From: an uncultured Erysipelotrichaceae bacterium
Lineage (GTDB): Bacteria; Bacillota_I; Bacilli_A; Erysipelotrichales; Erysipelotrichaceae
DNA: 33,594 nucleotides
Direction of reading: 5' to 3'
NCBI GenBank assembly: GCA_902786245.1
Contig: CADABS010000033.1
Span: 1 to 33,594, forward strand
Within the stretch, counting starts at the first letter, position 1, and the number at the start of each line of letters is the position of its first letter. The position numbers and the translations under genes were made by a program. Below the pieces are notes generated by a model. That model did no database searches. It was not told the origin of the DNA and saw nothing but the letters and a program-made list of their open reading frames with translations. Below are positions 6,256-30,941 of the stretch, one piece after another.

Positions 6256-6304
6256 ATGTTAGCTTACGCTAACCTATGCTAACATCAATTGAACGATTAT
6301 TCAA
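6256..6304. promoter_or_regulatory. Operator-like inverted repeats between the ABC operon and the FRG gene
   Basis: ATGTTAGC (6256-6263) is inverted as GCTAACAT (6278-6285). A further GCTAAC (6268-6273) lies exactly 10 bp before the last one and pairs with GTTAGC (6258-6263). A second inverted repeat, TTGAA/TTCAA, lies at 6289-6304. On the minus strand TTGAAT-17 nt-TAGCAT runs through both elements and could be the ABC promoter. This looks like a repressor-controlled divergent region; the cognate regulator is unknown. Confidence 0.5.
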
Positions 6305-6355
6305 CTGTTCATCATCAGATAATATATGTATTATTCAATGTGTTTTGAAAACGCA

Positions 6356-6361
6356 TATAAT
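6356..6361 (+). promoter_or_regulatory. Likely -10 box of the FRG gene
   Basis: A perfect TATAAT lies 26 bp before the chosen start. Only a weak -35 match (TTCAAT, 16-bp spacing) is present. Confidence 0.4.
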
Positions 6362-6386
6362 TATTATATACAACGGAGACATGCCT

Positions 6387-7211
6387 ATGATCACAGTCAG
6401 ACATATAACGAAAATCGATGAACTCGGACCGATCATCTTTGATCAGCACCTGGAAAAAAATCTGAACCGCTACCGTTCAGGCAGCCTGTACAAAGGCCTC
6501 AACAATGAAAAATGGGAACTGACAACCAGTCTCTACCGCAACTGCAGAGAAAAAAAGAATGAACTGGAAAGTATCATTCTGCGCAGCTTTACCAAATATG
6601 CTTCCTTTGAAGATCCCGAACTGAAAAACTCGGTCTGGCGGCAGCTGATCATCGGCCAGCACCATGGTCTGCCCACCCGGATGCTGGACTGGACCTATTC
6701 ACCCCTCATCGGTCTGCATTTTGCGACCAGCGTCGAACCGGAAAAACTCGGTATCCGCAATGCCGTGCTCTGGAAGATCGATGCCGATGAGATCAATACC
6801 AAGCTGCCGGATAAATACAGAAGACAGCTGATGATGGACCGTGCCCATATATTTACCGTAGAGATGCTGCAGAGATGCACAGAATCGCTGACCGAATATG
6901 ATCTGGATATGAAAGACCATGCCATGGTTCTGATGGAACCGCCTTCGATCGACCAGCGCATCGTCAACCAGTATGCAAGCTTTGCGATTATTCCCAAGGA
7001 TATCGAAGCAGCGGACGGTTCCTTGACGATTGAGCGCTATCTCGATGAAAACACCGAGAAGACGGTCAAATACATCATCGACAGATCTCTGATCTGGCGG
7101 ATCCGGGATATGCTGGATCAGATGAATATCAATGAACGGATCATCTATCCCGGTCTCGACGGACTGTCCCAGTGGATCAAGCGCCATTATTATGTCACAG
7201 ACAAAGAATGA
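6387..7211 (+). CDS. FRG domain-containing protein
   Basis: A 274-residue protein. The start at ATG 6387 is chosen because GGAG sits 8 nt upstream; ATG 6381 is only 2 nt from it, and an upstream ATG at 6276 lies in the operator. The FRG domain covers about residues 25-125: LYKGLNN stands at the eponymous Phe-Arg-Gly position (degenerate here), and the hallmark GQHHGLPTRMLDWT (90-103) is followed by SPLIGLHFA. The domain is common in phages, toxin-like loci and defence islands, but its biochemistry is poorly defined. The C-terminal half shows no domain I recognise. It is a single gene with its own terminator, divergent from the ABC operon. Confidence 0.85.
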   Translation: MITVRHITKIDELGPIIFDQHLEKNLNRYRSGSLYKGLNNEKWELTTSLYRNCREKKNELESIILRSFTKYASFEDPELKNSVWRQLIIGQHHGLPTRMLDWTYSPLIGLHFATSVEPEKLGIRNAVLWKIDADEINTKLPDKYRRQLMMDRAHIFTVEMLQRCTESLTEYDLDMKDHAMVLMEPPSIDQRIVNQYASFAIIPKDIEAADGSLTIERYLDENTEKTVKYIIDRSLIWRIRDMLDQMNINERIIYPGLDGLSQWIKRHYYVTDKE

Positions 7212-12014: not shown

Positions 12015-12054
12015 CTGAAATATTGTGCATTATACTGAAGAAGAGGTACAGGCC

Positions 12055-12651
12055 ATGGACAGAAGAACAAGAAAAACGACCGATGCGATCCGTACGGCAG
12101 TGCTGCAGCAGATGCTTAGCTATAAATACAACGAACTCACCGTCAGCCGTATCTGTGAAGCTGCCGATATCAGCCGCAGAACCTTCTACCTGCATTACCA
12201 GGATATCGATGATGTGTTTTCCGATATCTTCGATATCATCAATGCGCCTCTGTACAAAGCCATTGAAGAACTCGAACAGAATTATATCCACGGGCAGAAC
12301 GAAGATTATGAACTCTCTGTCATCTTCCGCCTGATCAATCAGACCATTGAAAACAATACGGCCTATCTGACCAGACTTGCCTGTGAGCCTTCCTATTTCC
12401 ATGTACAGATGCGCCATATTACATTGATGAAGAATCTGATCAATAAACATCTGAAACAGTCTGAAGATGCAAAGGGCATCTATACTGCCTACCTGGACTA
12501 TTACACATCCGGCATCCTGGAACTGTATTTCCAATGGTACAGGCATGATCACAGCCTTTCACTGGATGATATACGTGATTTTGCCCTGAATATTATCAGG
12601 GCAGACAGGCAGTATTTCCTGCATGCAGAGCAGTCACTGCGAAATCCGTGA
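12055..12651 (+). CDS. TetR/AcrR family transcriptional regulator
   Basis: A 198-residue protein. ATG 12055 is preferred because AGAGG lies 8 nt upstream; a GTG at 12025 would add ten residues. The N-terminal TetR helix-turn-helix is clear: ELTVSRICEAADISRRTFYLHYQDIDDVF (about residues 28-56) carries the conserved TFYxHY recognition segment. The rest is helical and variable, as expected for ligand binding. The divergent arrangement with the flavin oxidoreductase and the shared palindrome suggest that it represses that gene and itself, and is released by the enzyme's substrate. The ligand is unknown. Confidence 0.9.
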   Translation: MDRRTRKTTDAIRTAVLQQMLSYKYNELTVSRICEAADISRRTFYLHYQDIDDVFSDIFDIINAPLYKAIEELEQNYIHGQNEDYELSVIFRLINQTIENNTAYLTRLACEPSYFHVQMRHITLMKNLINKHLKQSEDAKGIYTAYLDYYTSGILELYFQWYRHDHSLSLDDIRDFALNIIRADRQYFLHAEQSLRNP

Positions 12652-12686
12652 ATTTTAATTGGTTTGATACTGCGAAATTCGTGAAT
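12636..12686 (+). repeat. 18-bp direct repeat pair
   Basis: ACTGCGAAAT(C/T)CGTGAAT occurs at 12636-12653 and 12669-12686, one mismatch apart and 33 bp start to start. The core GCGAAATTCGTG is nearly palindromic. The first copy overlaps the end of the TetR gene. The pair sits just upstream of the ATPase relic and may be its old operator. Confidence 0.7.
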
Positions 12687-12699
12687 GCGAGGTTTTATC

Positions 12700-12849
12700 A
12701 TGTTTAAAAGGAAAATATACAAATCATTTGAATACTTCACAAAGAAATATCCGGTGAAAACAACAGAGCGGTTTGTCATCAGTCCGAGAAACCTCGAAAT
12801 CAGAAGTGATCTCATTTTTCTCCTTGTATATATGACATACTGCCTGTAA
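12700..12849 (+). pseudogene. Remnant of a DUF4143-type AAA ATPase gene
   Basis: A 49-codon ORF with a plausible GAGG ribosome site 7 nt upstream. It begins MFKRKIYK, as many DUF4143/AAA ATPases do. From about residue 18 it reads YPVKTTERFVISPRN and ends VYMTYCL, closely like the conserved C-terminal end (YP..ERFVISP..L....YLP.YMT) of the same roughly 400-residue family. The P-loop, the sensor regions and most of DUF4143 are absent. I read it as an internal deletion that joined the first dozen codons to the last thirty-five. A real small protein is the less likely alternative. Confidence 0.6.
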
Positions 12850-12910
12850 ACCAACGGTCGATTGTTTTCGCACTGACCGTCTGCTAGATTGGAATCAGGA
12901 GGTAACCGAT

Positions 12911-13768
12911 GTGCCAACACTTGGAAGCTATATACGTACACTCAGAATCAAAAACAGTCTGACACAGTCTTCGCTGGCGGGAAAGCTGCATGTCACTGAC
13001 AAAGCCGTTTCCAAGTGGGAAAGGGACCTCTCATACCCGGATATCAGCTTGCTTCCGAAGCTGGCTGGTATCCTTGGTGTTTCAGTCAGTGACCTGCTCA
13101 GGGAATGGGACGATAACGGATCCCCGGAACAGCTGAAAAACTACTACCGTATGTCCCACGATGTCAGAACTCCTCTGCACATCATACTCGGATGTGCCGA
13201 CCTTGCCGGTCAGTATGCGGACGACCCCGTACGGAGAAAAAAATACCTGGATGCGATCCGTATCAGTGCCACCTATCTGCTCGACAGATACAGTCAGATC
13301 CGCAAAGACATCGTATCCGATCCCGAAGAACTCAGCGAATACTACCGGACACATGAAGGTAAAGCGCAGCATCCCGTCTATGATTTCCATGGAAAACGGA
13401 TCCTCATCGTTGAAGACATGGAACTCAGCCGGGAGATTGCCAGAGAAATCGTGATTCATGCAGGTGCTGAAGCGGACTGCGCAGCAGGCGGAGAAGAATG
13501 CCTGAAAAAAATCATGGACAGCCCGGCCGGAACATATGACCTGATCCTGATGGATATTGTCATGCCTGATATGGACGGCATCGAGACAGTCCGGCGGATC
13601 AGAAACCTGAACGACCTTTCTAAATCTGCCATACCGGTGATTGCCATTACGGCCGATGTCAGTGAATCCATGAAAGAAAAAGCCTTTGCGGCAGGCATGA
13701 ACGGATTTGCGGCCAAACCGGCGGGTCCGGAACAGCTGTACGAAACAATCAAAGCGAATCTGCGGTAA
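12911..13768 (+). CDS. XRE helix-turn-helix / HisKA-like / receiver fusion regulator
   Basis: A 285-residue protein that starts at GTG 12911, 7 nt after AGGAGGT. Residues 5-63 are an XRE-type HTH (LTQSSLAGKLHVTDKAVSKWE). Residues 78-130 look like a histidine-kinase dimerisation helix with an intact H-box, MSHDVRTPLHIILG, with His83 as the phosphoacceptor position. No HATPase domain follows. Residues 162-285 are a full receiver: acidic pair Glu168/Asp169, phosphoacceptor Asp215 (LILMDIVMP), Thr247 and Lys269. It could take phosphate from a separate kinase or pass it between His83 and Asp215 while binding DNA. No kinase gene is adjacent. The gene is monocistronic with a downstream hairpin. Confidence 0.85.
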   Translation: MPTLGSYIRTLRIKNSLTQSSLAGKLHVTDKAVSKWERDLSYPDISLLPKLAGILGVSVSDLLREWDDNGSPEQLKNYYRMSHDVRTPLHIILGCADLAGQYADDPVRRKKYLDAIRISATYLLDRYSQIRKDIVSDPEELSEYYRTHEGKAQHPVYDFHGKRILIVEDMELSREIAREIVIHAGAEADCAAGGEECLKKIMDSPAGTYDLILMDIVMPDMDGIETVRRIRNLNDLSKSAIPVIAITADVSESMKEKAFAAGMNGFAAKPAGPEQLYETIKANLR

Positions 13769-13793
13769 CTCCTTACCTTCCTGTTTCAAGATC

Positions 13794-13826
13794 ATGCGGT
13801 GCTGCTATGGGGATACAGCACCGCAT
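13794..13826 (+). terminator. Strong hairpin after the XRE-receiver gene
   Basis: ATGCGGTGCTG (13794-13804) and CAGCACCGCAT (13816-13826) form an 11-bp stem, nearly extendable with flanking GATC. Only a short ATTT follows, so termination efficiency is uncertain. Confidence 0.55.
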
Positions 13827-13873
13827 TGATCATTTCTGAATGCACGAAAATGAAAAACAGCGCCGGAATACGG

Positions 13874-13879
13874 TATAGT
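13874..13879 (+). promoter_or_regulatory. Likely -10 box of the flavin reductase gene
   Basis: TATAGT lies 24 bp before ATG 13904. No strong -35 box is seen. Confidence 0.4.
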
Positions 13880-13903
13880 GAAAGCAGAAAAGAAGGTGCT
13901 GAT

Positions 13904-14539
13904 ATGACAAAGAAAATCATTGCCGTCAATGCCGGCCCGAGAAAAGGCTGGAATACGGACACACTGATCAATGAAGCAGTCCGCGGTGCCGAAGCCGCCG
14001 GTGCTTCCGTGGAGAAATTCGATCTGTACAGACTGGAACAGTATACCGGCTGTATTTCCTGCTTTGGCTGTAAAACCGAGAAATTCAAGAGCCACTGTAT
14101 CCGCAGGGACGGACTGACACCGGTGCTGGATGCCATCCGGGAAGCAGACGGGCTGATCATCGGATCGCCCAACTACCTCAGTGAACTGACCGCTTCCTTC
14201 CGGGCGCTGTATGAAAGACTGATCTTCCAGCATCTGACATATAACCGGGAGACGCCCTGCTGCAACACCCGGCCGATTCCGGTCCTGTTCATCATGACCA
14301 GCAATGCCCCGGACAATTCCTATCTTGAACTGGTCAGCGGATACAAAGCGACATTCGAGCGCTTCATCGGTCCGACCGATGTACTCATTTCCGGCAATAC
14401 CCTGCAGCTGAAAGACTATTCAAAGACAGACTGGGAATGGTCGCTGTTCGATCCGAAGAAAAAACAGGAAAGACATGACAGCGTCTTCCCGCTGGAATGT
14501 CAGAAGGCCTATGAAAAAGGTCTGAAGCTGACGGAGTGA
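13904..14539 (+). CDS. NADPH-dependent FMN reductase / iron-sulfur flavoprotein-like
   Basis: A 211-residue flavodoxin-fold protein. The start at ATG 13904 has AAGG 8-10 nt upstream. The N terminus IIAVNAGPRKGWNTDTLI is the FMN phosphate loop. CISCFGC (about residues 49-55) and a further Cys at about 63 match the compact cysteine cluster of the iron-sulfur flavoprotein branch, although the spacing differs from the archaeal type. GSPNYLSELTASFRALYER (about 87-105) is the second FMN-binding segment. Members move electrons between NAD(P)H, FMN and low-potential acceptors, often in redox stress. A small ORF follows after 25 nt, probably in the same transcript. Confidence 0.85.
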   Translation: MTKKIIAVNAGPRKGWNTDTLINEAVRGAEAAGASVEKFDLYRLEQYTGCISCFGCKTEKFKSHCIRRDGLTPVLDAIREADGLIIGSPNYLSELTASFRALYERLIFQHLTYNRETPCCNTRPIPVLFIMTSNAPDNSYLELVSGYKATFERFIGPTDVLISGNTLQLKDYSKTDWEWSLFDPKKKQERHDSVFPLECQKAYEKGLKLTE

Positions 14540-15277: not shown

Positions 15278-16159
15278 TCAGTCATGGCTGTTCTTCAGAT
15301 ATGCATCAAATTCATCCGGCGGCAGGGGACGGGAATAATAGTAGCCCTGGATCAGGCTGCCTTTTTCTTTCAGATATGCGGCCTGTTCCGCTGTTTCGAC
15401 ACCTTCCGCAATCACGGTCATGTGCAGATCGGCTGCCATTTCCGTCAGACTGTCAATCAGTGTATTTCCCCGTTCGGTGCCGATCTGATCAATCAGGCTC
15501 TTATCGATTTTCAGAATATCATAGGGAATCGCCGCAAGATTGGCATAGGCCGCATAGCCTGCGCCGAAATCATCGATTTCAACATAGAAGCCGTTTTCAT
15601 GGAATGCATGTGCCGCAGCTTCAGCGGTTTCTTTATCTGCGTCCAGTGTTTCTGTCACTTCTACGCTGACACAGCCGTCCGGCAGACCGTACGAACGCAG
15701 GATTTCCGTATACTCACGCACCGTGTTTTCCTGCATGACAGAGAGAACTGACAGATTGACGGAGATCGGAAACAGTTCTTCGCCGGCATCCATTCTCTGC
15801 TTCTGCAGCGCACAGACCGTTTCAAAGACATGTTAATCCAGCTGCACGACCTGACCGCTTTCTTCCAGGGCTGCGATGAAGACGGAAGGGGATATGTATT
15901 CTTCGCCTTCTTTCCAGCGCGAAAGGGCTTCGGCCCCGGCGGTTTCTCCTGTGTCAGGACTGACGATCGGCTGGTACCATACCTGTATTCTGCCGTCTTC
16001 CAGGGCATCCTCAAAGGCACCGGCAATTTCCGTATCCGTGTCAAAATCCCAGTTTTCTGCCGTTCTGCCCGGTACATTGCGTACGATCCAGACGGTTTCA
16101 GCCAGGACAGCGGCAGCCAGAAGGAAGATGATGATTCTGTAAATCCGTATTCTGTTCAT
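15278..16159 (-). pseudogene. Membrane-anchored EAL phosphodiesterase gene with an in-frame stop
   Basis: The reading frame of about 293 codons is interrupted by one TAA (15833-15835) at codon 109. The frame stays open on both sides: ...SGQVVQLD, stop, HVFETVCAL... Most EAL proteins have Tyr at this place (LDYxVF), so TAC/TAT to TAA is the simplest change. Residues 9-27 form a membrane span. EALSRW (77-82), SVNLS, EVTE, DDFGAGY, LKIDKS, AEGVET and QGYYYSRPLP are all intact, so the protein would otherwise hydrolyse cyclic di-GMP. No GGDEF domain is fused to it. GGAG precedes ATG 16159. An internal ATG at 15793 could restart translation, but without the EAL motif. A sequencing error is possible. 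Confidence 0.85.
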
Positions 16160-25532: not shown

Positions 25533-27344
25533 ATGGCTTCGGCAGAGAAAGAAAAACAGATGCTGGATCAGATCGTGCGGGCATATGCGTCCCGGCACGG
25601 TCTTTCTGTTCTTTATCCCTATGAATCCAGGCCTGACCAGGGGGTTCTGAGCGATCCTGCAACAGGCCGCTGGTATGCCGTATTCATGCCGGTATCCGGT
25701 GAAGAAATCGGACGGGAAGAAGATGTCTGTCAGATCATGGAAGCACCCTTTGAACCGGAAATGATCCGGCTGCTGGGTACCTATGCATACTGCCATGAAG
25801 CCGTATTCATGGACCGGAATACCTGGCTGATGTTCATCATGGATGAAAACACCGATATACAGACATATCTGTCTCTGCTTGAACTCAGCTGCACTTCCGT
25901 GCAGAACAGTTCCGGCCATGACCAGAAAGACTTCAGCGAAGAAAAAGAATACGGCGATGTACCGCTGACATTCAGAAAAAGAGAGAAAAAAGAGGACACG
26001 GTCCCAGCACAGATCGAAGAAGTGCGCAGGATGTACCGGCAGTCGCAGGCAGCCGGTCTGTACAGCCGGAACGAACTGTTCTGGCGCCAGGCGTGTCTGC
26101 TGAAAGATTATACCGATGACTATGTCTATCAGGGCCGTCCCTGGGTGAATGAAATCAGCTATAATGCATTGACAGACCGGCAGCTGCGGGGATATTTCAC
26201 CTGGCGGACAGCAGTGCGGGAAGACGGCTGTTTTCCGGAAAAGACACCGGACTGCTTTATTGAACTGTATATCTGTGAACTGATCTGCTGTATCCATAAC
26301 AGCCCGGAAGATACACTGCCGCAGCTGCTGATGATCAGAGATCTGTGCATGCAGGAACAGCGTTCCTGCAATTACAAAGCCGAGCGGCTGGTCAATGATT
26401 TCGTCATGTATTATGATCTGCCTGTACAGTACAATGAACGGCTTCTGGCCGGTACACAAGCAGATGATACGCTGCACCGGTTCATTGCCTTTCTGGAAGG
26501 AAAAGAAGAAGCAGATTTACCTTTTCTGACGCGGGTGTTTCATAACCGGACGGAACGCTCCGTATTTCTGCGGGAGCATACCGAAGACTTTGTGCATATC
26601 TTTGCAAAAACGGTGCAGAAGGCACAGCAGACATGTCCGGATATCCTGCATCAGAGTCTGATCAGCGAATCCTCCTGGCAGTATTCTGTCTTTACGGGAG
26701 CGCTGTTTTATCACGAAGAACCGCATGCCGATCAGCGGTACTGGCTGAGCGGCCATGACTGCTATCAGTGCATCGATGATCTCTGGTACTTTACGGTCTG
26801 CAGTCTCAATCTGAACAGTTCTCTGATCCATGAAACGGACCGGCGGATGCGCATCGTATACAAATACAGAAAAGCACTGCGCCAGAAAGAACTGGATCCT
26901 GCTCTGGCCCAGGCGGTCAACGAAGCAATCCTGGAATACCGCCATGAACAGAAACTGGCGGCCAGACCGAAGGTGGAAATCGATATGAGCATCCTCGGCG
27001 GCATCCGCGATGATGCGGCGCTCACCAGGGAATCGCTGTTAACCGAAGAAGACCTGCTCGAAGAGGAAGAAGAAAACGAAAAAGAGATGCTTGCCCGGGA
27101 ACATACGGATACCGAAAGCATATTCACAGAAGAAGAAAAAGCATTGATCTGCTGCCTGCTTGAAGACAGACCCCTCAGCACAGAACCGCTGCTGAAAAAC
27201 AGTTCGGCTGCGCTGCTGGCAGACAGTATCAATGAGAAAATGATGGATGAACTGGGCGATACCGTCATTGAATTTGACGGGGATACACCGGTACTGATCG
27301 ATGATTACATCGATGATCTGACGGAGGCAGTCTATGACAAATGA
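25533..27344 (+). CDS. sngA: TerB_N/TerB_C protein, Shango SngA-like, with MmcQ/YjbR-like N terminus
   Basis: A 603-residue protein. Residues 10-122 resemble the MmcQ/YjbR fold (YPYESRPDQGVLSDPATGRWYAVFMPV ... NTWLMFIMDENTD). A charged linker (123-160) leads to a TerB_N region (about 165-370; EISYNALTDRQLRGYFTWRTAVR ... FIELYICELICCI). A TerB_C-like end (about 475-600; RPKVEIDMSILGGIRDDAALTRESL) contains a strongly acidic stretch. In Shango, as described for anti-phage defence, a TerB protein, an ATPase and a helicase form a three-gene unit, and this gene overlaps the ATPase gene by 11 nt. The MmcQ-like head is an addition I do not know from the described systems. Its start lacks a ribosome site. 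Confidence 0.75.
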   Translation: MASAEKEKQMLDQIVRAYASRHGLSVLYPYESRPDQGVLSDPATGRWYAVFMPVSGEEIGREEDVCQIMEAPFEPEMIRLLGTYAYCHEAVFMDRNTWLMFIMDENTDIQTYLSLLELSCTSVQNSSGHDQKDFSEEKEYGDVPLTFRKREKKEDTVPAQIEEVRRMYRQSQAAGLYSRNELFWRQACLLKDYTDDYVYQGRPWVNEISYNALTDRQLRGYFTWRTAVREDGCFPEKTPDCFIELYICELICCIHNSPEDTLPQLLMIRDLCMQEQRSCNYKAERLVNDFVMYYDLPVQYNERLLAGTQADDTLHRFIAFLEGKEEADLPFLTRVFHNRTERSVFLREHTEDFVHIFAKTVQKAQQTCPDILHQSLISESSWQYSVFTGALFYHEEPHADQRYWLSGHDCYQCIDDLWYFTVCSLNLNSSLIHETDRRMRIVYKYRKALRQKELDPALAQAVNEAILEYRHEQKLAARPKVEIDMSILGGIRDDAALTRESLLTEEDLLEEEEENEKEMLAREHTDTESIFTEEEKALICCLLEDRPLSTEPLLKNSSAALLADSINEKMMDELGDTVIEFDGDTPVLIDDYIDDLTEAVYDK

Positions 27345-28632
27345 AAGAAAAGCACCGAAGCGCATTGCCTCGGTCGTAATCAACAGTCTCAAGGGCGGCG
27401 TTGTGCCCCGTATCGGTCTGCCGTACATCACGGTCGGCAGAAAGAACGAGATCGCAGCTTTACTGCATGATGTGGATATCGTCAGCGAAGGCGGCGCTTC
27501 GTTCCGCTTCATCGTCGGAAAATACGGCAGCGGAAAATCATTCATGCTGCAGACGATCCGGACCTATGTCATGGACCGGGGCTTTGTCGTTGTCGATGCC
27601 GATCTTTCCCCGGAAAGACGTCTGTACGGCACAAACGGACAGGGCATTGCCACCTATAGGGAACTGGTCCGCAACATGTCGGTCAAGACCAGACCGGAAG
27701 GCGGTGCCATGATGTTGATACTGGACCGCTGGGTCCGGGTCCTGAATGAACAGGTGAAAGACCGTGCGGAAGCAGAGAAAAAACTCAATGAGATGATGCA
27801 TGCGATGAATGAACTCGTGCACGGTTATGACTTTGCGGCGATGCTGAAAATGTACTGGCAGGCCGACTGCGAACAGAATGAGGAAACCAAAGCGCTCATC
27901 GTCAAATGGCTGCGGGGCGAATACAATACCAAAAGCGAAGCCCGGGAAGAACTCGGCGTACGCAATATCATCGGCGACAATGACTGGTATGACTATCTCA
28001 AGCTCTTTGCGATGTTCCTGAAACAGGCAGGCTACAGCGGCCTGATGATCCTGATCGATGAACTGGTGAATATCTATAAGATTCCCAACAGCATTTCCCG
28101 TCAGAACAATTATGAAAAGATCCTGACGATGTACAACGACACCATGCAGGGAAAGGCACAGTATCTCGGCATCCTCATGAGCGGAACACCCCAGGCGGTG
28201 GAAGACCAGAGAAGGGGTGTCTACAGCTATGAAGCACTGCATTCGCGTCTGGCCCAGGGCAAATTCTCCCGGGAGGGTGCCCGGGATATGCTGGCACCGG
28301 TCATTCATCTTGAGCCTTTATCCGCGGAGGAGATGCTTGTACTGACCGGCAAGCTGGCAGAACTGCATGAGCGGCTGTATGACTATACCTGCCGGCTCAG
28401 CGATGAAGATCTTGCCATGTTCATCAAAATCGAATACGGACGCATCGGTGCGGAAAAAGCCATTACGCCCCGGGAAGTCATCCGCGACTTTATCGAGCTT
28501 CTCGATATCCTCTATCAGAATCAGGATCTGACCATGGAACAGCTGCTGAACAGCGATGCATTCGCCTTCTCCAAAACCATGCTGGAGGAGGAAGAAGAAA
28601 CGGATGCGCAGTTTGCGGAATTTACATTGTAG
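27334..28632 (+). CDS. sngB: DUF2791/BrxD-type ATP-binding protein, Shango SngB-like
   Basis: A 432-residue P-loop ATPase. Walker A is GKYGSGKS (62-69) and Walker B LMILIDE (237-243). The N-terminal VINSLKGGVVPRIGLPYITVGRKNEI is the hallmark of the DUF2791 family, to which BrxD of type 2 BREX also belongs. MSGTPQAVEDQRRGVYSYEALHSRL is a further conserved block. The C-terminal Glu-rich end (EEEEETDAQF) is short. GGAGG precedes ATG 27334 inside sngA. No BREX methylase, PglZ or Lon gene is present, so a Shango-type unit fits better than BREX. It probably acts with the helicase on phage DNA or replication intermediates (inference). Confidence 0.85.
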   Translation: MTNERKAPKRIASVVINSLKGGVVPRIGLPYITVGRKNEIAALLHDVDIVSEGGASFRFIVGKYGSGKSFMLQTIRTYVMDRGFVVVDADLSPERRLYGTNGQGIATYRELVRNMSVKTRPEGGAMMLILDRWVRVLNEQVKDRAEAEKKLNEMMHAMNELVHGYDFAAMLKMYWQADCEQNEETKALIVKWLRGEYNTKSEAREELGVRNIIGDNDWYDYLKLFAMFLKQAGYSGLMILIDELVNIYKIPNSISRQNNYEKILTMYNDTMQGKAQYLGILMSGTPQAVEDQRRGVYSYEALHSRLAQGKFSREGARDMLAPVIHLEPLSAEEMLVLTGKLAELHERLYDYTCRLSDEDLAMFIKIEYGRIGAEKAITPREVIRDFIELLDILYQNQDLTMEQLLNSDAFAFSKTMLEEEEETDAQFAEFTL

Positions 28633-28643
28633 GAGGGGCAGAT

Positions 28644-30941
28644 ATGGACATTTTTTCCAGATATGCACCGTTTATCCAGGACTATATCTACAGCCATCAA
28701 TGGGAGAATCTGCGCGGTGTGCAGGTGGCCGCAGCCGAGGCGATTTTCAATACGGACAGCCATGTCCTGCTTACCTCTTCCACGGCTTCGGGCAAGACGG
28801 AAGCTGCCTTCTTCCCGATCCTGACTCTGCTGTATGAAGACATGCCTTCTTCCGTCGGCGTCATCTATATCGGACCGCTGAAAGCCCTGATCAATGACCA
28901 GTTTCTGCGTCTCAATGATCTCTGCGAAGAAGCGGATATTCCGGTATGGCACTGGCATGGGGATGTATCTTCCTCCCATAAAAACAAAATGCTGAAACAT
29001 CCTTCCGGCATCCTGCAGATCACCCCGGAAAGCCTCGAAGCGATGCTGATGCATAAACATGCACTGATCCCGAAGCTGTTCCACGATCTGCGCTTTATCG
29101 TCATCGACGAAGTCCATTCGCTGCTGCGGGGCGACCGCGGCGGTCAGACATTATGTCTGCTGGAACGTCTGTGCAGACTGGCCGGATGCAGTCCCCGCCG
29201 GATCGGTCTTTCCGCGACGATCGGCGATCCGCAGGCAGCCGGCAGATTCCTGGCAGCCGGCACCGGCCGGAATACCGTCATTCCGAAGGTTGCACCGGCA
29301 CCGCAGAAATGGCGTCTTTCCATGGAACATTTCTATAAGACAGGCACACCGGAAGAAAAGAATGACGATGTAATCGATCTGCAGCTGCGGACGGATACAG
29401 ATGTCTTTGCGGCAGAAGAAAAAACCGATGAAGCACCCGCCGGTGCTGATGCGGGCATCGGCTATATCTTTGAACATACCGCTGAGCGTAAATGCCTTGT
29501 TTTCTGCAATTCCCGGGAAGAAGCAGAAGCAGTGACCGCAACATTGCGGCAGTACTGCGAAATCAATCATGAACCGGACCGCTTCCTCATCCATCACGGC
29601 AATCTGTCCGTTTCCTACCGGCAGACCGCAGAAGAAGCGATGAAAGATGAAGAAAAGACCTTTACGACCGTTACGACTTCCACACTGGAACTGGGGATCG
29701 ATATCGGCCGGCTGGAACGGGCATTCCAGATCGATGCGCCGTTTACCGTATCTTCCTTCCTGCAGAGAATGGGCAGAACCGGACGCCGGGGACAGCCCCA
29801 GGAAATGTGCTTTGTCATCCGGGAAGAAGAACCTGAACCCCGCAGCACTCTGCCGGAAACAGTCTCCTGGAAGATGCTGCAGGCTATTTCACTGATTCAG
29901 CTGTACATGGAAGAAAAATGGGTGGAACCGCCCCGGCTGGACCGTCTGCCGTTCTCCCTGCTGTATCATCAGACGATGTCGACTCTGGCATCCGGGGGAG
30001 AAATGACACCGGCACAGCTGGCATCGAGAGTTCTTTCCCTTGCCTCTTTCCACAGGATCAGCCAGGATGACTACCGCATCCTGCTAAAGCATCTGATCGA
30101 AAAAGACCATATACAACTGACCGAACGGGGCGGACTGATCCTGGGCCTTGCCGGGGAGAGAATCGTCAATAACTACAAGTTCTACGGTGTATTCGTGGAT
30201 GATGAAGAATATACGGTCCGCTGCAAAGACAATGAACTGGGTACGATCGTCGCCCCGCCGCCGGTGGGAGACAAAGTTGCCATTGCCGGCCGGGTCTGGG
30301 TCGTCGATGAAATCGATCATCCCCATCACATCGTCTATGTCACCCTGGTCAAGGGAATCATTCCGGCATATTTCGGCAACTGCCCGGGCGATATCCATAC
30401 CCGGATCCTGGAACGGATGAAGCAGGTACTGGAAGAACAGACTTATTATCCGTATCTGCAGTCCAATGCGACAGCCCGGCTGCTGAAAGAGCGCACGGCC
30501 GCAATCTCCGGCAATATGACAAGACAGCCGCTGATCAACCTCGGCGGAAAGATGTGGGCACTGTTTCCATGGCTCGGCACATACAGCTTTATGGCCCTGG
30601 AACGGTTCCTCAAAATCAAATGCAAAGCCCGTCTGGGCCTGAAGGGATTTGATGCGGCCAAACCGTATTTCATGCAGTTCACCATGCAGGTATCACCGGA
30701 AGAATTCTTCCGGATCCTGCTGGAAGAAGCAGAAAAACCGTTCGATCCGCTCGAACTGGTCTATGACGGAGAAGTGCCCGTATTTGAGAAATATGATGAA
30801 TATGTACCGGATGAACTGGTCCGCAAAGGATTCGCCTATGGCGTACTGGATATCGAAGGCATGCTTGCGCGGGTGCGTCAGTGGCAGGAATTTGCAATTC
30901 CGGGACGGCTTGAATACTTCGAAGTACCGTCCATTGAATAA
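28644..30941 (+). CDS. sngC: DEAD/DEAH-box helicase, Shango SngC-like
   Basis: A 765-residue superfamily 2 helicase of the Lhr/BrxHI-like group. Motif I STASGKT is at 46-52, motif II DEVH at 155-158 and motif III SAT at 190-192. Motif IV lies around VFCNS (286-290), motif V TTSTLELGIDIG (344-355) and motif VI QRMGRTGRRG (374-383). A long C-terminal part (about 400-765) contains a winged-helix-like region (LASRVLSLASFHRISQDDYRILLKHLIEK) and a beta-rich section. No separate nuclease motif is obvious. AGGAGG precedes the start, 11 nt after sngB. It is the last gene of the cassette and is followed by a strong terminator. Confidence 0.9.
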   Translation: MDIFSRYAPFIQDYIYSHQWENLRGVQVAAAEAIFNTDSHVLLTSSTASGKTEAAFFPILTLLYEDMPSSVGVIYIGPLKALINDQFLRLNDLCEEADIPVWHWHGDVSSSHKNKMLKHPSGILQITPESLEAMLMHKHALIPKLFHDLRFIVIDEVHSLLRGDRGGQTLCLLERLCRLAGCSPRRIGLSATIGDPQAAGRFLAAGTGRNTVIPKVAPAPQKWRLSMEHFYKTGTPEEKNDDVIDLQLRTDTDVFAAEEKTDEAPAGADAGIGYIFEHTAERKCLVFCNSREEAEAVTATLRQYCEINHEPDRFLIHHGNLSVSYRQTAEEAMKDEEKTFTTVTTSTLELGIDIGRLERAFQIDAPFTVSSFLQRMGRTGRRGQPQEMCFVIREEEPEPRSTLPETVSWKMLQAISLIQLYMEEKWVEPPRLDRLPFSLLYHQTMSTLASGGEMTPAQLASRVLSLASFHRISQDDYRILLKHLIEKDHIQLTERGGLILGLAGERIVNNYKFYGVFVDDEEYTVRCKDNELGTIVAPPPVGDKVAIAGRVWVVDEIDHPHHIVYVTLVKGIIPAYFGNCPGDIHTRILERMKQVLEEQTYYPYLQSNATARLLKERTAAISGNMTRQPLINLGGKMWALFPWLGTYSFMALERFLKIKCKARLGLKGFDAAKPYFMQFTMQVSPEEFFRILLEEAEKPFDPLELVYDGEVPVFEKYDEYVPDELVRKGFAYGVLDIEGMLARVRQWQEFAIPGRLEYFEVPSIE

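Follow-up and report, generated by a model that had tools for sequence, protein, structure and literature searches.

An XRE-DHp-receiver protein family with a decaying H-box, probably hybrid histidine kinases turned DNA-binding response regulators

In the DNA of an uncultured Erysipelotrichaceae bacterium (contig CADABS010000033.1, positions 1 to 33,594; this 33,594-nt stretch is the window below), one gene joins an XRE helix-turn-helix, a kinase-type DHp hairpin and a receiver in a single chain that has no kinase ATPase. What is the hairpin for in such a protein, and from where does its receiver obtain phosphate? A sequence-only reading had taken it for a hybrid histidine kinase with its sensor and catalytic parts gone, in which His83 and Asp215 form an internal phosphorelay that another kinase must charge. 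Pfam bore out the proposed make-up of XRE HTH, HisKA and complete receiver, with no HATPase match in the 285-aa protein, and the residue numbering was exact (Table 1).

Table 1. Features of the XRE-DHp-REC gene in the window.
Feature	Position	Strand	Evidence
Shine-Dalgarno AGGAGG, perfect	12897..12902	+	8 nt 5' of GTG; read from sequence
XRE-DHp-REC protein, 285 aa, GTG start	12911..13768	+	ORF, Pfam, homologues, purifying selection in relatives
XRE / Cro-CI helix-turn-helix, residues 8-62	12932..13096	+	HTH_3 E 1.1e-10 (Pfam)
HisKA-type DHp helical hairpin, residues 73-133	13127..13309	+	HisKA 29.1 bits at residues 81-127 (Pfam cut-off 26.9); AlphaFold2 helices
His83 codon, histidine of H-box MSHDVRTPLH (residues 81-90)	13157..13159	+	kept in 7/20 homologues
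Receiver, residues 164-280	13400..13750	+	Response_reg E 1.4e-24; Foldseek CheY, RR468, DivK
Asp215 codon, receiver phospho-acceptor	13553..13555	+	kept in every family receiver
Thr247 codon, conserved switch Thr/Ser	13649..13651	+	15 T, 5 S among 20
Phe266 codon, aromatic switch position (Lys269 minus 3)	13706..13708	+	F in 20/20 family receivers

Genome-wide searches recovered 19 further homologues with both XRE and DHp parts, at 46-59% identity; 18 are sequenced through the receiver and one ends at a contig end before it. The start site lies in the same place in homologues. All 21 sequences in the family alignment matched HTH_3, the DKAVSKWE recognition region of the XRE head is near-invariant, and the HisKA profile was matched at E<=0.01 in 20/20 DHp-bearing members. 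Purifying selection was evident in comparison of the relatives L010 and L106 (dN/dS 0.11) and between L107 and L200 (0.09). Given these homologues, profile matches and constraint, the architecture is not a chance product: these proteins are a real, selected family, and the search for the same architecture that the sequence-only reading had called for found it in about 20 genomes. The hosts are gut and rumen MAGs, labelled, where a label is given, Lachnospiraceae, Oscillospiraceae, Clostridiales or Solobacterium. The distribution is patchy, with the full-length form in 7/70 genomes of the genus, 8/272 of the family and 8/315 of the order, and among 392 genomes drawn from the phylum only in the window's own.

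By domain content the protein would be classed as a response regulator, since its receiver carries the phospho-acceptor Asp, acidic pair, Thr/Ser and Lys and a DNA-binding output domain stands in the same chain; its N-terminal HTH_3 would also place it among the XRE (Cro/CI) regulators. It does not qualify as a histidine kinase or hybrid histidine kinase, having no Pfam match to HATPase_c and an H-box His that is present in the window protein but poorly kept in the family. Nor is it a Spo0B/ChpT-type phosphotransferase, which would need a conserved phospho-transferring His.

AlphaFold2 modeled the whole protein with a pLDDT of 80.7 and placed helices at residues 73-82, 86-101 and 106-133; the hairpin alone reached 88.5. 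The middle helices thus formed a DHp-type helical hairpin in the models, in line with the HisKA fold expected of them. With the full model, the Foldseek matches listed were all receivers. With the hairpin alone no E-value was significant (best 0.74, to a non-kinase), which is expected of a two-helix query, and DHps of HK853, KinB, YycG, SrrB and ChpT were prominent among the matches. Assignment to the HisKA (DHp) fold therefore comes from the Pfam profile and the predicted hairpin, with weak support from Foldseek.

Outside the family, the best receiver matches were the C-terminal receivers of SHDIRTP-type DHp-CA-REC hybrid kinases. The lead-in to the receiver, YDxSGKRIL(L/V)AED, is similar in the family and in these hybrids, and the DHp region also matches them (47.8% over 46 aa). 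Because all three stretches point the same way, descent from a hybrid histidine kinase is well supported, and the earlier suggestion of a hybrid kinase stripped of its sensor and catalytic parts gains from the homology of both retained domains.

The family receiver nevertheless differs from those of the hybrids at one switch position. We compared 20 family receivers, distinct in sequence: 19 from XRE-DHp-REC proteins with a complete receiver, plus one from a short paralogue described below. All have Asp215, Lys269 and a Thr/Ser switch residue. Three residues before Lys269, Phe266 is universal in the family; at the same loci this position is His in 20/24 C-terminal hybrid-kinase receivers (F/Y in the other four) and Tyr in 11/13 receivers of short proteins. 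An aromatic residue here serves Thr-Tyr/Phe coupling in output receivers, and the position varies in the intermediary receiver of CckA (PMC9981736). Phe266 fits a family receiver of the output-driving type, an indication whose weight is limited by kinship within the family.

The proposed phosphorelay depended on conservation of both phospho-acceptors among homologues. Asp215 held in every family receiver. His83 did not: the 20 DHp-bearing members have R in eight, H in seven, Q in two, S in one, A in one and a gap in one, so the H-box described as intact is so in the window protein and not in the family. The check that the sequence-only reading had set for itself goes against the relay at His83, but not at Asp215 or in the fold. 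As a control, the H-box His was kept in 29/29 HisKA proteins from the same loci in which an ATPase motif could be detected (Fisher p 3e-7 for His loss in the family against these kinases, kinship among sequences ignored). On a tree built without the position-83 column, the H/non-H state changed at least 6 times. An Arg83 clade had support of 99/98, and the window protein, with His83, was sister to L001, with Arg, at the same support (99/98).

Loss of the His has left a pseudo-DHp in most relatives, and its core has not decayed with it. D84, R86, P88, G94, Y112 and L113 are present in 20/20 members. Between L010 and L106, both with Arg83, the DHp shows one non-synonymous and nine synonymous changes (dN/dS 0.03); such strong constraint in His-less proteins means that selection keeps the DHp without its phospho-acceptor. 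T87, the H+4 residue, is found in 14/20 members, some of them His-less, with Met in five and Ala in one. Seven residues past His83 lies a family-specific His90 (13178-13180), present in 17/20 members and Asn in the hybrid kinases; it occupies a position known from EnvZ/HK853 work to contact the receiver. Its conservation hints that a docking face may be maintained.

One copy has gone further. A 221-aa paralogue in the window's own genome (L101:8645-9310, minus strand) has the same XRE head and receiver without a DHp. It sits inside the Arg83 clade (support 95/93), a placement consistent with loss of the His before the DHp in that lineage. Its gene is divergent from a neighboring gene for a 1061-aa REC-GGDEF-EAL protein.

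No ATPase-kinase motif turned up within about 7.5 kb of the gene in any of the 20 loci scanned. HATPase was matched 26 times in the window's genome, several times in hybrid kinases. A check for orphan HATPase partners, also proposed earlier, came to nothing: the small HATPase ORFs inspected in the genome were RsbW-like (among ferredoxin/NuoE-like genes) or a fragment of 84 aa, and none was an obvious ATPase of a kinase. The genome encodes a single free-standing HPt (C7, 126 aa), whose gene follows one for a REC-GGDEF-EAL protein. As an obligate donor it was rejected, since HPt occurs in 3/7 genomes of the genus with the gene versus 16/63 without it (p 0.38). The need for charging in trans, as the sequence-only reading had proposed, is supported.

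No gene neighborhood was conserved beyond close relatives, and a promoter/terminator scan gave nothing above chance. In both window 12025-14536 and L011:3883-6370 the XRE-DHp-REC gene has a TetR-type gene immediately upstream, and flavin reductase-like genes occur nearby; redox regulation is possible, but the hint is thin. Elsewhere in the window, three plus-strand genes at 25533-30941 match PADLOC SngA, SngB and SngC (a TerB-like protein, a BrxC/D-type ATPase and a DEAD helicase) and make up an anti-phage defence system of the Shango type. An FRG-domain protein at 6276-7211 (plus strand) matches the PADLOC candidate defence family PDC-S15. At 15278-16159 (minus strand) an EAL (c-di-GMP phosphodiesterase) domain is split across two ORFs in different frames, either a frameshifted pseudogene or an assembly error.

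We think it probable that these proteins are decayed hybrid histidine kinases turned into dimeric DNA-binding response regulators, with Asp215 charged in trans. An XRE head would have replaced the sensor and the ATPase domain would have been lost, while the DHp survived together with the C-terminal receiver. Two hairpins would pair into a four-helix dimer and so join two XRE heads, and the pseudo-DHp may offer a docking surface to receivers. Asp215 could be charged by an unlinked kinase or HPt, or by small-molecule donors; phosphorylation would then re-seat the receiver on the pseudo-DHp and alter operator binding, in either direction. We count in favor the architecture and the homology to SHDIRTP-type hybrids, the repeated loss of His alongside a retained DHp core, the output-type receiver and the lack of a linked kinase. 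The poor Foldseek E-values for the lone hairpin count against it. Because the short paralogue exists, DHp dimerisation or docking cannot be indispensable. A pure scaffold also leaves the invariance of D84 unaccounted for: the acid next to the H-box His serves autophosphorylation in true kinases (PMC3510030), a role that is impossible in the window protein, which has no ATPase.

The internal phosphorelay, with a DHp like that of Spo0B or ChpT, in which His83 or Asp215 receives phosphate from another kinase and its shuttling between the two controls a repressor, now seems unlikely. His83-Asp84 and Asp215 are intact in the window protein, DHp-like phosphotransferases without kinase activity do exist in Spo0B and ChpT (PMC3433190), and phosphotransfer is possible in the seven members that keep the His, the window protein included. 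But no more than seven of 20 members keep His83, which every ATPase-bearing kinase from these loci retains, Arg occupies the site across a well-supported clade, selection acts on the DHp of an Arg83 pair, and one paralogue dispenses with the DHp. The same H-box face might instead work as a built-in phosphatase in which Thr87 dephosphorylates Asp215~P and sets the lifetime of the signal. HisKA phosphatase activity requires Thr or Asn at H+4 (PMC3510030), so the retention of T87 in some His-less members would suit this reading; its replacement by Met or Ala in six members does not, and we regard it as very unlikely.

It is also quite unlikely, in our judgment, that the DHp pairs with that of a full hybrid kinase, so that the XRE head is tethered to the kinase or the protein acts as a phosphate-taking decoy. 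Hybrids from the same bacterial family have homologous DHps, the genome has several hybrid kinases, and the DHp core is kept though the His is not; against this, no kinase is linked, and many hybrid kinases are membrane-bound, an awkward place from which to bind DNA. A bolder form, equally doubtful, would have the pseudo-DHp heterodimerise with resident hybrid-kinase DHps in general, making a soluble transcription factor a swappable subunit of kinase complexes that reads the phosphorylation of several kinases at once. That the gene is a functionless, degenerating relic is highly improbable: patchy distribution and lost catalytic residues might suggest it, but dN/dS is about 0.1, the receiver and HTH are intact in all, and the architecture recurs across genomes.

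If they are indeed former hybrid kinases acting as response regulators, the family would display stages on the way from hybrid sensor kinase to transcription factor: first the loss of the ATPase, then repeated loss of the phospho-His and then, in one copy, of the entire DHp, with receiver and DNA-binding head retained throughout. The family allows a test of what a DHp can still contribute, in dimerisation or receiver docking, once phosphotransfer has ceased. It also warns that a "histidine kinase" annotation, or the H-box of one member, can mislead on mechanism.

Among known systems, the DHp-CA-REC hybrids of the same bacterial family share a homologous DHp, receiver and lead-in; unlike our family they have a sensor and HATPase, an invariant H-box His and mostly His at the switch position. 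Spo0B and ChpT also have a DHp-like bundle without kinase activity, but they depend on a conserved His and are not fused to a receiver or a DNA-binding domain. In archaea, "HisKA, no HATPase" proteins and regulators of the AF_1472 type (REC-PAS/GAF-HisKA), proposed to be dimers, likewise have HisKA without HATPase; in them a sensor or REC is N-terminal and there is no XRE head (PMC5847659). A literature search of partial coverage found no described XRE-REC response regulator. The nearest precedents are two. The pseudo-histidine kinase DivL of Caulobacter has a HisKA without phospho-His that serves as a dimeric receiver-docking module, and His-less DivL still dimerises and docks DivK~P; it differs in having a CA domain and PAS sensors, no DNA-binding domain and a receiver bound in trans (PMC4211667). 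The RHH-HisKA-REC proteins of Lokiarchaeum GC14_75 have an N-terminal DNA-binding domain, HisKA and C-terminal REC, with no HATPase named; the DNA-binding fold differs from XRE, and theirs is a mere census mention that may reflect bacterial contamination (PMC5847659). As far as this partial coverage of the literature goes, the architecture of DNA-binding domain, HisKA and REC had been noted only there, in passing; what is new here is an XRE version with a decaying H-box.
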